Source of the DNA: Brachybacterium subflavum
Lineage (GTDB): Bacteria; Actinomycetota; Actinomycetes; Actinomycetales; Dermabacteraceae
Direction: 5' to 3'
Assembly: GCF_009299795.1 (NCBI RefSeq)
Contig: NZ_VIGP01000005.1
Coordinates: forward strand, 310,001-374,000
DNA length: 64,000 bases
In this document: positions 8,820 to 13,410 of the stretch, piece by piece
Layout of the letters: each line of letters begins with the position of its first letter
Position numbering within the stretch: the stretch's first letter is position 1
The notes under the pieces: generated by a model
Told to the model about the DNA's origin: nothing
What the model saw: the letters and a program-made list of their open reading frames with translations, nothing else
Databases searched by the model: none
Translations under genes and position numbers: made by a program

Positions 8820-9191
8820 ATGCGATCCCGTACCGCACTCCCCCTCCTCCTCTCCTCCGTCCTCACCCTCGGCCTGGCCGGCTGCGGCGCAGGGCAGGGC
8901 GACTTCTGCGACGTGCTCACGAACAACACGGAGACCGCCGCAACGGTCTTCACCCCGGTGATCCCCGGGATGGTCGACGAGGCGACGATCCAGCAGCGCA
9001 TCGACCTCGTCGACCAGATCGAGAGCCCGCCGAGCGACCTCGAGGACCACCTCTCGACCTGGCGCACCTATCTGCAGACGGCGCAGGACAACATCGACGA
9101 CGCGACCGCGGTGATCGACGCCGGCACGCCCGAGGTGGACGAGGCTCAGGAGGCCCTGTTCGAGAGGTACACCGGGACCTGCATGTCCTGA
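8820..9191 (+). CDS. Small secreted lipoprotein, unknown function
   Basis: A 123-residue protein with a lipoprotein signal peptide (positively charged N-terminus, leucine-rich core, lipobox LAGC with Cys near residue 22). The mature part is a short, acidic, probably helical domain with two more cysteines (CDV, TCMS) that could form a disulfide. It would be anchored to the outer face of the cytoplasmic membrane. No family was recognised. Confidence 0.8.
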   Translation: MRSRTALPLLLSSVLTLGLAGCGAGQGDFCDVLTNNTETAATVFTPVIPGMVDEATIQQRIDLVDQIESPPSDLEDHLSTWRTYLQTAQDNIDDATAVIDAGTPEVDEAQEALFERYTGTCMS

Positions 9192-9265
9192 GCCGCCAGT
9201 ACGCCCGACCGGCCGGGCACCCGGTCCCCGACGCCCGGCACCCCTCGCTTCCCAAGGAGCTACCG

Positions 9266-10249
9266 ATGCCGGACATCCACTACTCAGCACGCGGCTTCAA
9301 CGCCAACCCGCCGACCGCCACCCTCCCCGAACAGCAGAAGCCGACAGCCGGCGTGGGCTGGGATGGCGTCATGACCAGCAGCTTGCTGGATGTCGTCACC
9401 GAAGCCGTGGCAGTGGGCGACTCCGGCATCTTCACCAACCAGCCCAAGCGCTCGGCGCTCCAGAAGATCTGGCGAGCCGCAACGATCGAGGCCTTCCTCG
9501 AAGAGTCCTCCGAAGGATTCGTGCTCTCCACAGACCACGAGACCCTCGATGGGACCGAGCGCGCACAGGTGAGCTATCACCTCGGCATGGCGCAGGCCGC
9601 CCTCGTCGCCAGGGAGGCGCTCAAAGTCCAGACCACCGTCCACTCCGACCTGGTCCTCAAGCTGCTCTACGGGAAGATCGCCGGGAAGGTCGCGGGCGAG
9701 AAGCGCCCCGACCTCCTCGGATACAGCTTCACCCCCAACAGCCCCAAGACCTTCCCCAGGGTGCTCCTGGAGGCCAAAGGGACGATGGACGGAACACTTT
9801 CGAAGCCTCTGAATGACGCACTCGAACAGCTCAATTCGCCGAGGCATGAGCTCGTCCGCCTCATCGGCACCGAGGGGATCAGAGCGGCATCCGTCGCATA
9901 CTTCCCCGCTCGCCGAGGAATGGGGGCCGCGCCTCGGGTCTGGGCGAGCCACTTCGCTGACCCTCCAGGCGGAGTGGTCGAGGACCCTCTCCAGATCAGC
10001 GACAACGAGTTCACCCAGTTGCTCAACCTCGCACAGCTGCTCCCGATCCGCTGGGCCATCGACGAAGTCCGAGAAGAACTTCCCGAGCGAGTCGAGGACG
10101 ACTACGCCGGCGGCTTCGTCAGAGCGAAGCTCCCCTTCACCGACACCTTCATCGCTCTCCCCACCCAGATCTACACGTTCCTCGGCGGGATCGACACCCC
10201 CTTCTCGACCGGCGCGCCGCCGCTTCGGAGCTCGAGGAATTTGGCGTAA
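9266..10249 (+). CDS. PD-(D/E)XK nuclease-like protein of a low-GC island
   Basis: A 327-residue protein not matched to a named family. It contains the core of a restriction-endonuclease-like fold: KRPDLLGYS (Pro148-Asp149) followed about 20 residues later by VLLEAKG (Glu169-x-Lys171), then a helix with Gln188 (ALEQL). This is the usual order of PD...(D/E)xK...Q active-site residues. The N-terminal 140 residues are helical and could hold partner- or DNA-binding functions. AAGGAG precedes the ATG at 9266. Base composition falls clearly below the neighbours (about 53% G+C at 9781-9840). It faces an ATPase gene (complement 10382-11644) with a 36-codon ORF coupled at its stop. Nuclease activity is inferred from the motif only. 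Confidence 0.7.
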   Translation: MPDIHYSARGFNANPPTATLPEQQKPTAGVGWDGVMTSSLLDVVTEAVAVGDSGIFTNQPKRSALQKIWRAATIEAFLEESSEGFVLSTDHETLDGTERAQVSYHLGMAQAALVAREALKVQTTVHSDLVLKLLYGKIAGKVAGEKRPDLLGYSFTPNSPKTFPRVLLEAKGTMDGTLSKPLNDALEQLNSPRHELVRLIGTEGIRAASVAYFPARRGMGAAPRVWASHFADPPGGVVEDPLQISDNEFTQLLNLAQLLPIRWAIDEVREELPERVEDDYAGGFVRAKLPFTDTFIALPTQIYTFLGGIDTPFSTGAPPLRSSRNLA

Positions 10250-10359
10250 TGACCGCCAAGCTCGGGGTCGACCAGCTCACCGAAGGGCTGACCAGCACCT
10301 CGCAGCGAGCGAGGGTTCTCCCCTCCCGTCTCGCCGTCACCCAAACGGTGTATGCCTGA
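10249..10359 (+). CDS. Possible 36-residue ORF coupled to the nuclease-like gene
   Basis: The ATG at 10249 overlaps the preceding stop as TAATG, and the frame runs 36 codons to a TGA at 10357-10359. No domain is visible. It may be a small partner protein, the eroded C-terminus of a longer gene, or chance. It ends 23 bp before the convergent ATPase gene. Confidence 0.3.
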   Translation: MTAKLGVDQLTEGLTSTSQRARVLPSRLAVTQTVYA

Positions 10360-10381
10360 TCCGGTGTCGCGCGTAGAGCCG

Positions 10382-11644
10382 TCAGGGAGCAGTGTCGTCG
10401 GGTGTGCTGGTGGGGATCTCGGGCCAGCTCGTCGTCAGGTACGCCTCGACCGCACGGTGACGGAACGTGTAGGGCTTTCCTCGCGTGACAATGCCCCGGA
10501 CAGAATCCAACCGTCGGGCGGTCGGGCCGGCGTCCGATCCTTGGGTCAGTCCCATCTTGCGGGCGATTGTCGTCAGAGTGCGTTCGGAGGGCTCGAGTTC
10601 CGCCATTTCTCCCAGGAACTCGCGCTCCCGGGTAGGTAGGCGGGCAAGGATCCGTTCGACATGGTCCCTGGCCTCGTCGCGGGCCATCTGCCACCCCTTG
10701 GTGACGTGTTCCCTTGTGATCACGTCGTCGGTTCCCGCATACCAGGCCTTCTCCCCGGCGAGCTGGAACAGGAAGGGCTCTCCGCGCGAGAGGTCGACGA
10801 TCGCCGACTGCGCTTCTTCCTCCATGAAGATCCTGGTGGATCCGCCCTGCTCGCCAGGGATCTCCCAGCCGCCCACGATGAACGGACGTAGGGCACTGAC
10901 GAGGTCGTCGTCGTCGAGTGGCCCTAACGTGGTCGTGTGAAAGCGTCGCGCGAAGGTCGCGCCCTTGCGAGCCCCCGCCATGTCCTTGAACTCCGGTAGG
11001 CCGGTCAGATAGATCGCGAGTGGCAGAGCTCGCTTGATGAGGCGACCGCCGGGTGCCGTGACTTCCTCTTCGTGGACGATCGCATCCCCGAGGGCCACGA
11101 GGAGCTGCGACAGTGCGTCCTCGGAGGTGATGTTCTGTACCTCGTCGATGTGAATGAGGACCATGACCTCGCCCCGATGGATCGCGGCACGTCCGAGCTC
11201 GATCAGCAGCTCGGTCAGTGTCGAGTAAGGCTCGGGGCCCTGGCTCTCCCGGAGCGTCAGGGAGACGCCCGCTGCCGCGACAGTCTCGACACGATTGAGA
11301 AGTTCGACGATCCGCTTTTCGCGTGCCGTCGCGAGGCCTGCCTGACAAGCCACGTCCAGAAGCGCCTTCGCGACCCGCTTGAGGGGGTCGGACCCGGAAG
11401 GGATTCGCAGCTGGGGTGTCACCCAGTCCCCACGCTCTGCTGCGTCGGCGGCGATCCGACGCACGAGCGAAGACTCCCCGAGCCCTGCCTCACCGAGGAT
11501 TGTCCGACCGCGCTCAGGCAGCCCTGCCAGTCGACGAGGGCGGACCACGTCACGCCAGTCGCTGAGTTGGCCGGTCCTGCCCGCCCAGACCTGGGGGACG
11601 GTATCCGAGCCGGGGCTGAATGGTGAGTCCACAGGCGTACGCAT
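10382..11644 (-). CDS. AAA/STAND-like ATPase with altered Walker A motif
   Basis: A 420-residue protein from the ATG at 11644. The P-loop region reads GEAGLGESS (residues 51-59): the Walker A lysine is Glu57, by a GAG codon one base away from AAG. Walker B is intact (MVLIHIDE, Asp167-Glu168), followed by a LTGLPEF sensor-like strand and a C-terminal helical, probably winged-helix, domain. An upstream extension of the frame to 11905 was rejected because it runs across the two operator palindromes and has no domain. The ATG sits 2 bp from an operator, so translation is probably leaderless. It is convergent with the nuclease-like gene in the same lower-GC island. The family looks like the P-loop ATPases common in actinobacterial accessory regions; its function is unknown. 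Confidence 0.75.
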   Translation of the reverse strand: MRTPVDSPFSPGSDTVPQVWAGRTGQLSDWRDVVRPRRLAGLPERGRTILGEAGLGESSLVRRIAADAAERGDWVTPQLRIPSGSDPLKRVAKALLDVACQAGLATAREKRIVELLNRVETVAAAGVSLTLRESQGPEPYSTLTELLIELGRAAIHRGEVMVLIHIDEVQNITSEDALSQLLVALGDAIVHEEEVTAPGGRLIKRALPLAIYLTGLPEFKDMAGARKGATFARRFHTTTLGPLDDDDLVSALRPFIVGGWEIPGEQGGSTRIFMEEEAQSAIVDLSRGEPFLFQLAGEKAWYAGTDDVITREHVTKGWQMARDEARDHVERILARLPTREREFLGEMAELEPSERTLTTIARKMGLTQGSDAGPTARRLDSVRGIVTRGKPYTFRHRAVEAYLTTSWPEIPTSTPDDTAP

Positions 11645-11646
11645 CT

Positions 11647-11660
11647 TGATAACATTATCA
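11647..11660. promoter_or_regulatory. Operator 1 / promoter of the ATPase gene
   Basis: TGATAA-CA-TTATCA is a perfect inverted repeat ending 2 bp from the start codon at 11644. On the minus strand it contains TAATGT, a TANNNT -10 box 7 nt before the ATG, so binding here would block a leaderless promoter. Confidence 0.75.
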
Positions 11661-11675
11661 GTCGTCGTATCGGCC

Positions 11676-11687
11676 GATAACTTTATC
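11676..11687. promoter_or_regulatory. Operator 2 of the ATPase gene
   Basis: GATAA-CT-TTATC repeats the core of operator 1, 28 bp away centre to centre. The protein that binds is not identified; it could be the ATPase itself through its C-terminal domain, or an outside regulator. Confidence 0.7.
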
Positions 11688-11919
11688 AACGTGCAGTCCG
11701 GTGCGCGCGACCCGTGAGTCCTTCGCGGCACCTCCGAAACGCCCTCGGGGCCACGCTCCGCCAGCGCGCCTGTCCTGAGCCGCCCGACGGCAACAGGTGG
11801 CCGCTCGCTCGCGTCGGACGGGGCGTTCCCTATCCTGGAGCGCATCGCCGTGCAGTGATCCCGCGCGGCCGCGCGCCCGGACCAGCCGGGCATCGCGACG
11901 CCCACCAGCTGGAGGACCT

Positions 11920-13410
11920 GTGACCCCGCGCTTCTCGATCCCGACCGACGACGCCGTCGGCCCCTTCGTCGTCGGACTCGACGTCGGCTCCGGCGGCAGC
12001 CGCGCCGCCGTCTACGACGCGTCCGGACGCGAGGTCGGCACGCGCCACCACAAGGTCGAGCACTCCTTCACCACGGCGGCCGACGGCACCTCCACGATCG
12101 ACGCCGACCAGGTCGTCGAGGAGCTGTGCGTGGCCATGGAGGCCGTGCTCGAGGGGTCCCTGCCCGGGCCCGTCGTCGGCATCGGCGTCGACACCTTCGC
12201 CTCCTCCCTGATCGCCGTCGACGCCTCCGGCACTGCTCTCACCCCGTGCATCACGTACGCGGACACCCGCTGCCGCGACCAGGTGAGCGCGCTGCGCGAG
12301 GAGCTCGACACCACCGCCCTCCACGACCGCACCGGCTCCCGCCTGCACTCCTCGTACAACGCGCCGCGCCTGCGCTGGCTGCGCGAGGAGCACCCTGACG
12401 TCTTCTCCCGCGCGAGCGGGTTCATGGCGCTCGGCGAGTACGTCGCCCTGAAGCTGCTGGGCGAAGGCGTGCTGGGCACCGCCTCGGCCGCCTGGGGCGG
12501 CATGATCGACCGCCGCACCGGCCAGTACGTGCCCGAGCTGCTCGAGGCCACCGGGGTCTCCGCGGACCGTCTCGGCGGCCCGCGCGACCCCTCGCAGGGG
12601 CAGCCCGTCGCGGGCACCCCGCTCGCGAAGCGGATCCCCGCGCTCGCCGACGCCACCTGGATCCCCGTCGTCGGCGACGGTCTGACCGCGAACCTCGGGA
12701 TCGGGGCCGTGGGCCCCGGGACCTGGGGCATCTCCACCGCGACCTCGGGCGCGATCCGTCAGTTGCTCGACACCGAGACCGGCACCCTGCCCGGGGGGCT
12801 CTGGGCCTACCGCGTCGACGCGCGCCGCACCCTCGTCGGCTCGGCCATGAGCGACGCCGGGCGTCTGCTCGACTTCGCCCGCACGCGCCTGGCGATCCCC
12901 GAGGACGTCTCCCAGATCGACACGAAGAGCCTGCTCGGTGCCCCACCCCAGGCGGGAACGCCGCTGGTCGTCCCGTTCCTCTCCGGCGAGCGCGGCACCA
13001 AGTGGCGCGACAGCGCCCGCGCGATCTTCGCGAACGTCTCCGCCTCCACCACCGCCGAGGACCTGCTGCGCGGCAGCTTCGAGGGCCTCGCGCTGTCCTA
13101 CCTGCGCATCGCCGACCAGCTGCGCGAGGTGGGCGGCGCCCCGCAGCGCATCGTGCTCTCCGGCGGCATGACAGAGAACGCCCCGGCCTGGCTGCACCTG
13201 CTGGCCGACGCCCTGCAGACCCCCATCGATCACGTCGCGATCTCCCGCTCGACCATGCGCGGCGCCGCCCTCCTCGCCCTCGAGCAGACCGTGCCCGACG
13301 CCGAGCGCGCCCCGATCCCTGTGCGCAGCACCATCGAGCCGGTCGCCGCCCACGCCGACTACTACCGCGAGCGCCTCACCCGCTTCGAGATCCTCGCCGA
13401 CGTCGCGTGA
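11920..13410 (+). CDS. FGGY family carbohydrate kinase, gluconokinase-like
   Basis: A 496-residue kinase with the two-domain FGGY/actin-like fold: phosphate-1 loop VVGLDVGSGGSRAAVYD near the N-terminus, a central YADTRCRDQV substrate-side segment, GDGLTANLGIGAVGPGTWGIS in the second domain, and a C-terminal LSGGMTENAPAWLHLLADAL adenosine-binding motif. The GTG at 11920 follows GGAGG by four bases, and TATCCT at about 11830 is a likely -10 element. Members phosphorylate gluconate, xylulose or related sugars; gluconate is the best guess, from overall similarity only. No transporter or dehydrogenase of the pathway lies beside it. Confidence 0.85.
   Translation: MTPRFSIPTDDAVGPFVVGLDVGSGGSRAAVYDASGREVGTRHHKVEHSFTTAADGTSTIDADQVVEELCVAMEAVLEGSLPGPVVGIGVDTFASSLIAVDASGTALTPCITYADTRCRDQVSALREELDTTALHDRTGSRLHSSYNAPRLRWLREEHPDVFSRASGFMALGEYVALKLLGEGVLGTASAAWGGMIDRRTGQYVPELLEATGVSADRLGGPRDPSQGQPVAGTPLAKRIPALADATWIPVVGDGLTANLGIGAVGPGTWGISTATSGAIRQLLDTETGTLPGGLWAYRVDARRTLVGSAMSDAGRLLDFARTRLAIPEDVSQIDTKSLLGAPPQAGTPLVVPFLSGERGTKWRDSARAIFANVSASTTAEDLLRGSFEGLALSYLRIADQLREVGGAPQRIVLSGGMTENAPAWLHLLADALQTPIDHVAISRSTMRGAALLALEQTVPDAERAPIPVRSTIEPVAAHADYYRERLTRFEILADVA

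Follow-up and report, generated by a model that had tools for sequence, protein, structure and literature searches.

The window analysed here is a stretch of 64,000 nucleotides (nt) from Brachybacterium subflavum, belonging to contig C21 of a 3.99-Mb genome, and it carries an island of ~2.6 kb in which two genes face each other. On the forward strand (9266..10249) lies a gene for a 327-residue PD-(D/E)XK-nuclease-like protein, and on the reverse strand (10382..11644) a gene for an AAA+/STAND-type ATPase with a C-terminal winged helix, 420 residues long as read from the ATG at 11644. Both open reading frames (ORFs) are present as given in a preliminary description of this DNA, which proposed that they form one acquired functional unit together with a 36-codon ORF. 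The item of interest is the ATPase family rather than the pair.

The island has ~65% G+C (64-66% per 500 bases, against 70-78% in the listed surroundings) and lies between the genes for a small lipoprotein-like protein (8820-9191) and for an FGGY-type kinase (~11920-13410). Its acquisition, suggested earlier from the low G+C, is borne out by an empty site in G025, a genome of the same genus, where flanks 91% identical to the window up to 9197 and from 11780 enclose 63 bp in place of the island; the flanks are likewise joined in G029, from which the lipoprotein gene is missing. The nuclease-like and ATPase genes thus sit in one inserted segment, and one or two insertion events would both fit. 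A 14-bp direct repeat, TGTCCTGAGCCGCC, lies at the edges, with its left copy (9184..9197) at the end of the lipoprotein-like gene, where the homology to G025 stops (~9197), and its right copy (11771..11784) where that homology resumes. Direct repeats of at least 14 bp flank the ATPase gene in 6 of 57 loci, at inconstant offsets, compared with 6/1500 cross-locus pairings and 33/1425 random places within the same loci, with the comparison reaching further downstream in the window than at the other loci. As a possible signature of a mobile element this is a modest excess only.

The ATPase family and its palindromes

Proteins of the ATPase family have both an AAA+ core, with Walker A and Walker B motifs, and a C-terminal winged-helix domain, and these family-level domain analyses support the AAA/STAND-type fold that had been suggested. 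The pattern GxxGxGK[ST], with its lysine, is present in 52/52 orthologues compared, and a Walker B-like LIHIDEVQN is found in the family. Orthologue L057 resembles two known families, passing the Pfam model AAA_16 (PF13191; 34.1 bits, gathering threshold 32.6) and just missing nSTAND1 (PF20703; 26.9 bits, under 27.1), but it differs in being a 410-residue protein without an added sensor or effector domain. The window copy scores 26.9 bits for AAA_16, below the 32.6 cut-off, and is unlisted for nSTAND1 at E <= 1. The P-loop ATPase described as facing the nuclease is there as an ORF and as a family fold, but its P-loop reads GEAGLGES and lacks the Walker A lysine, which is replaced by Glu at codon 57 (11474..11476, reverse strand). 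The recognition helix, residues 369-381, is encoded at 10502..10540 on the same strand, with residue 375 at 10520-10522; its limits come from a model of L057, which has the same numbering.

Two palindromes precede the ATPase gene of the window on its own strand. The start-proximal one, TGATAATGTTATCA (11647..11660), holds a -10-like TAATGT (11657-11652) 7 nt before the ATG, and the distal one, TGATAAAGTTATCG (11675..11688), holds a -35-like TTATCG (11680-11675) 17 bp from the -10-like hexamer. The twin operator of the preliminary description is real, as the core GATAANNTTATC has two matches in the window with at most one mismatch, against a mean of 0.03 in shuffled sequence and two matches in 0/100 shuffles.

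Across the family the palindromes have the form TGATAANNTTATCA and end 2 bases before the start codon. They were scored in 66 loci by a rule that takes a core of TAA..TTA with at most one mismatch and at least 4/6 symmetric positions. Two palindromes were found in 51 loci, three in 7, one in 6 and none in 2, and a palindrome sits at -15 or -16 from the start codon in 64/66. The 65 spacings between palindromes are 28 bp in 47 cases, 29 in 8, 27 in 5, 31 in 4 and 30 in 1, whereas 110-bp control windows elsewhere in the loci held one palindrome in 11/7701 and two in 0. Loci L038 (frameshift) and L083, L109 and L111-L114 (partial) were left out of these counts and of the covariation counts below; L174, L177 and L182 duplicate the contigs of L064, L059 and L107 and were not counted, and near-copies, for example L073/L080, L072/L092 and L091/L095, were kept.

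At the spacing of 28 the distal half TTATCA is placed 17 bp from the proximal TAANNT, which ends 7 nt before the ATG. Set against the consensus promoter hexamers, and with leaderless transcription being a feature of actinobacteria, we infer that the palindrome halves could provide the -35 and -10 elements of a promoter for a leaderless transcript. By position and spacing in the 66 loci the operator would overlap the gene's own promoter, which is itself deduced from the spacing.

The operator appears to be largely private to the gene. Of six genomes, five have a match to exact TGATAANNTTATCA, in each case confined to the ATPase promoter, and in the sixth, G023, the copies are imperfect. In the genome of the window the exact core is found at the two operator sites only; there are 3 places at one mismatch and 118 in total at up to two mismatches, compared with 24 for a backward control pattern, so weaker sites elsewhere in this genome are possible. 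Other sequences stand ahead of the more distant relatives: in L195 (38% identity, G566:C25) three copies of GGTACTNTGACGTC, directly repeated every 28 bp, end at an ATG, and the gene of L155 (39%) is preceded by an imperfect TGATAATGTTTTCA. The operator layout may extend across the wider ATPase family with other sequences. Genome G566 carries two distant relatives, L195 on C25 and L189 on C2, with other repeats ahead of their start codons.

In some lineages the half-site is TGTTAA in place of TGATAA. At residue 375 of the recognition helix, 8/8 TGTTAA rows have Phe, Tyr or Pro and 45/48 other rows have Thr; this residue heads those ranked with a score of 0.592, the next being 0.360. Of 197 well-conserved columns, only that of residue 375 differs across all four switch pairs, and the runners-up do so in two. 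Eight loci added later agree, the six with TGATAA having Thr and the two with TGTTAA having Ile and Ala. In the pooled table of 64 rows, from which L067 and L106 were omitted as they have no palindrome, residue 375 is other than Thr in 10/10 TGTTAA loci versus 3/54 others (Fisher p 1.9e-9, kinship ignored), and on the tree there are 6 half-site changes and 7 residue-375 changes. Because the half-site varies with the recognition helix, we read the ATPase protein as the probable ligand of its own operator.

Several points weigh against this reading and against the autorepression proposed below. The palindrome rule was defined after the first examples had been seen, L067 and L106 lack a palindrome, and six loci have a single one. 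The half-site classes were set post hoc, with one change of their threshold; by the stricter first rule (without L101, L097 and L099) residue 375 still ranks first, by a smaller margin (0.370 versus 0.318). A kinship-aware pair test is non-significant, with 5 pairs on supported branches and p 0.125-0.5, of which 3-4 go in the same direction, 0 in the opposite direction and 1-2 are ties. Val or Ala stands at 375 in three TGATAA or TGGTAA loci, which means that Thr is not strictly needed. The support is also at the level of sequence, and a fixed promoter under an unrelated regulator would likewise conserve the palindromes, though not the covariation with the helix. Another regulator may be considered as the reader of the palindromes, with the ATPase as an effector (for example a TnsC-, MuB- or ORC-like accessory of transposition or replication) whose winged helix is otherwise used; we think this unlikely.

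Distribution of the ATPase and a proposed mechanism

Close relatives of the ATPase (53-82% identity) are present in 6/37 other genomes of the genus. They are also found in 19/396 genomes of the order at E <= 1e-30, with that of the window counted, in 3/394 of a class sample, all three from the same order, and at 58 loci in a collection of 84,980 species, Corynebacterium and propionibacterial records being among them. One survey matched 59/118 genomes, mostly through weak relatives of 25-32%. Matches were seen in 25 plasmid records, all below 60%, phage records gave a single match of 26%, and no viral carriage of the gene was seen in a pattern scan of IMG/VR. In the tree the window protein clusters with L057 and L058, and other Brachybacterium copies (L100, L039 and L040) form a distant starred group.

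The neighbours of the gene vary between loci, L033 being a contig of just 3.6 kb, and there is no conserved partner in the 59 loci compared. When the ORFs of these loci were clustered by single linkage, the biggest cluster other than the ATPase itself comprised ABC-transporter ATPases at 12 loci and the next was seen at 5, and these are taken as common genes, not partners. The flanks were surveyed with 136 proteins (at most one upstream and two downstream per locus, with those above 600 residues dropped). No Pfam family was present in more than three of them, among the 25 of 138 families listed, and the same maximum of three applied to PADLOC families, among the 25 of 32 listed. The three-member matches were ordinary (ABC, TetR, MarR and AAA domains, and mad3, mad8 and AriA in PADLOC). 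On this survey of the listed families, a defence context for the ATPase was rejected.

Broken copies of the gene also occur, with a frameshift in L038 and remnants of 43 and 20 residues inside long contigs in L113 and L114; L109 and L111 are further remnant or broken copies within contigs. These suggest frequent loss. Patchy presence, varied neighbours and the split between Brachybacterium copies together form the pattern expected of a solitary, laterally moving gene, with many apparent gains and losses. A literature search at the level of abstracts recognised no description of the family, which is not proof of absence.

The reading we favour, as reasonably probable, is that the ATPase is one of a family of ORC/STAND-type AAA+ proteins in actinobacteria, encoded by solitary genes that spread horizontally, whose members repress their own gene. 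From the operators, their position, the covariation and the fold, we infer binding and repression by an ORC/STAND-type autorepressor, with probable ATP dependence. A dimer or oligomer of the ATPase, probably ATP-bound, would bind both palindromes through its winged helices and cover the -35 and -10 of the leaderless promoter, and this steric block would keep the gene off. Losing the bound state, through a change of nucleotide, titration or another trigger, would then give a burst of ATPase protein. The Walker A lysine has a general role in ATPases of this kind, and its loss in the window copy predicts weak ATP binding and hence weak repression, or else a dead protein; this copy is probably impaired in both ATP and operator binding.

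A wider proposal, which we hold to be rather doubtful, is that of a one-gene module with a private operator-promoter that moves among actinobacteria and recognises essentially only itself, its operator and helix residue re-evolving together. Its ATP-dependent autorepression would act as a molecular tripwire: infection, DNA damage or a nucleotide change would release it and flood the cell with ATPase. Among relatives of the STAND immune ATPases, such a module would be a minimal one, consisting of a single gene.

The nuclease-like gene and its relation to the ATPase

The order of RPD (147-149), LLEAK (167-171) and Gln188 was previously taken as that of a restriction-endonuclease-like active site. 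All three are present in the 327-residue protein, and R147-P148-D149 and E169-A170-K171-G172 are invariant in 4/4 sequences when it is aligned with three relatives, but Gln188 lies outside the invariant columns. The PD and (D/E)XK elements are thus kept, and the invariance of RPD and EAKG across the four places the motif beyond chance. This is its likeness to the PD-(D/E)XK superfamily. The protein differs in that no family match names it: Pfam and PADLOC scans gave no match, a search of the PDB gave no useful match and one with a profile gave none, and an NCBIfam scan gave one weak match, to an unrelated transferase family. A single-sequence AlphaFold2 model had a predicted local distance difference test (pLDDT) score of 34.6 and was useless for judging the fold.

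The three relatives are a 469-residue protein on a Rothia terrae plasmid (26% identity), a 397-residue protein in G330 (34%), whose gene is flanked by greA and a methionine sulfoxide reductase-like gene, and one in G222 (29%). Scans of genome contigs and of viral sequences for the nuclease returned no relative. Remoter matches to the G222 protein are found on 104 plasmid records, 92 of which are Agrobacterium, and on Agrobacterium and Rhizobium plasmids (hits H2-H21) the distant relatives overlap or adjoin an annotated RES-family NAD+ phosphorylase. Close to the G222 relative (L048, 23-8461) are an OLD/AbiEii-like ATPase, a helicase of UvrD type with GajB-like matches and a protein with an MrfA Zn-binding domain, and this neighbourhood is possibly a defence island.

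The 36-codon ORF (10249..10359, forward strand) exists as described. Codon-position G+C and frame translations within 10180-10360 show a shift at ~10200-10240 out of the nuclease frame and toward that of the ORF, and the three relatives extend past the C-terminal end of the window protein or differ there. For these reasons the ORF may be a displaced end of the nuclease gene and not a third gene. The frame change may be a mutation or a sequencing error.

The island of the window may be mainly wreckage that is being lost, a reading which falls only a little short of an even chance. The Lys to Glu change at codon 57, the displaced nuclease end and the broken copies seen at L038, L113 and L114 all point that way. 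Against it, the 420-residue frame is open and the remaining protein and both operators are preserved, the window protein and L058, the relative nearest to it, have similar branch lengths (0.17 and 0.15), and sequencing error is possible. This reading is compatible with autorepression as the explanation for the family.

That the nuclease, the ATPase and perhaps the 36-codon ORF are one acquired anti-phage system is, in our view, highly improbable. The two genes are similar in G+C and share an island that replaces ~63 bp of the empty site between 14-bp direct repeats, and the G222 nuclease relative has neighbours, the OLD/AbiEii-like ATPase and the UvrD-type helicase, that match PADLOC models. 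However, the ATPase is found in 19/396 and the nuclease-like protein in 3/396 genomes of the order sample, with only the genome of the window common to both, and homologues of the two occur independently and without co-localisation, a pattern that the preliminary description itself had named as one that would refute it. In the 59 loci compared the ATPase has no nuclease partner among its neighbours, and the ORFs read beside the nuclease relatives include no member of the ATPase family. The genes are also convergent and not an operon, and the ATPase copy lacks its Walker A lysine. PADLOC models (a 2023 library, so that newer systems are possible) matched neither window protein at E <= 1, and matched neither the three nuclease relatives nor the ATPase orthologue L057 at E 0.01. 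The pairing was rejected on distribution and neighbourhood. We take the nuclease-like gene to be a separate gene sharing the island of the ATPase; the presence of a nuclease and an ATPase in one island does not by itself make them a system.

Relatives of the ATPase and significance

Among the closest known proteins are the archaeal AAA+ ATPases PAB2304 (2qen) and SSO1545 (2fna), at 14-16% identity. A functional parallel is offered by Orc1-2 of Saccharolobus islandicus, a non-initiator archaeal ORC protein that regulates the response to DNA damage and binds a motif on its own promoter, a Walker A mutant binding DNA poorly (PMC9738581). The proposed ATP-dependent autorepression follows the same logic. 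Orc1-2 has an AAA+ domain followed by a C-terminal winged helix in ~410 residues (PMC9738581), and with its motif on its own promoter and its need of Walker A for strong DNA binding it resembles what is proposed here, where binding by the family is predicted. It differs in governing many other genes, whereas the exact operator of the family is found only at its own promoter in the genomes searched, and in being archaeal with an ANTTTC motif (PMC9738581), whereas the ATPase family is bacterial and its operator is unlike that motif.

Autorepression, if true, would name a patchily distributed yet strongly conserved (53-82% identity) gene of actinobacteria and provide its first mechanism. It would also supply a clean code for protein-DNA recognition, in which Thr375 goes with TGATAA and other residues with TGTTAA. 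The family would then be a bacterial counterpart to the archaeal Orc1-2, and a simple setting for how an ORC/STAND ATPase couples its nucleotide state to DNA binding.
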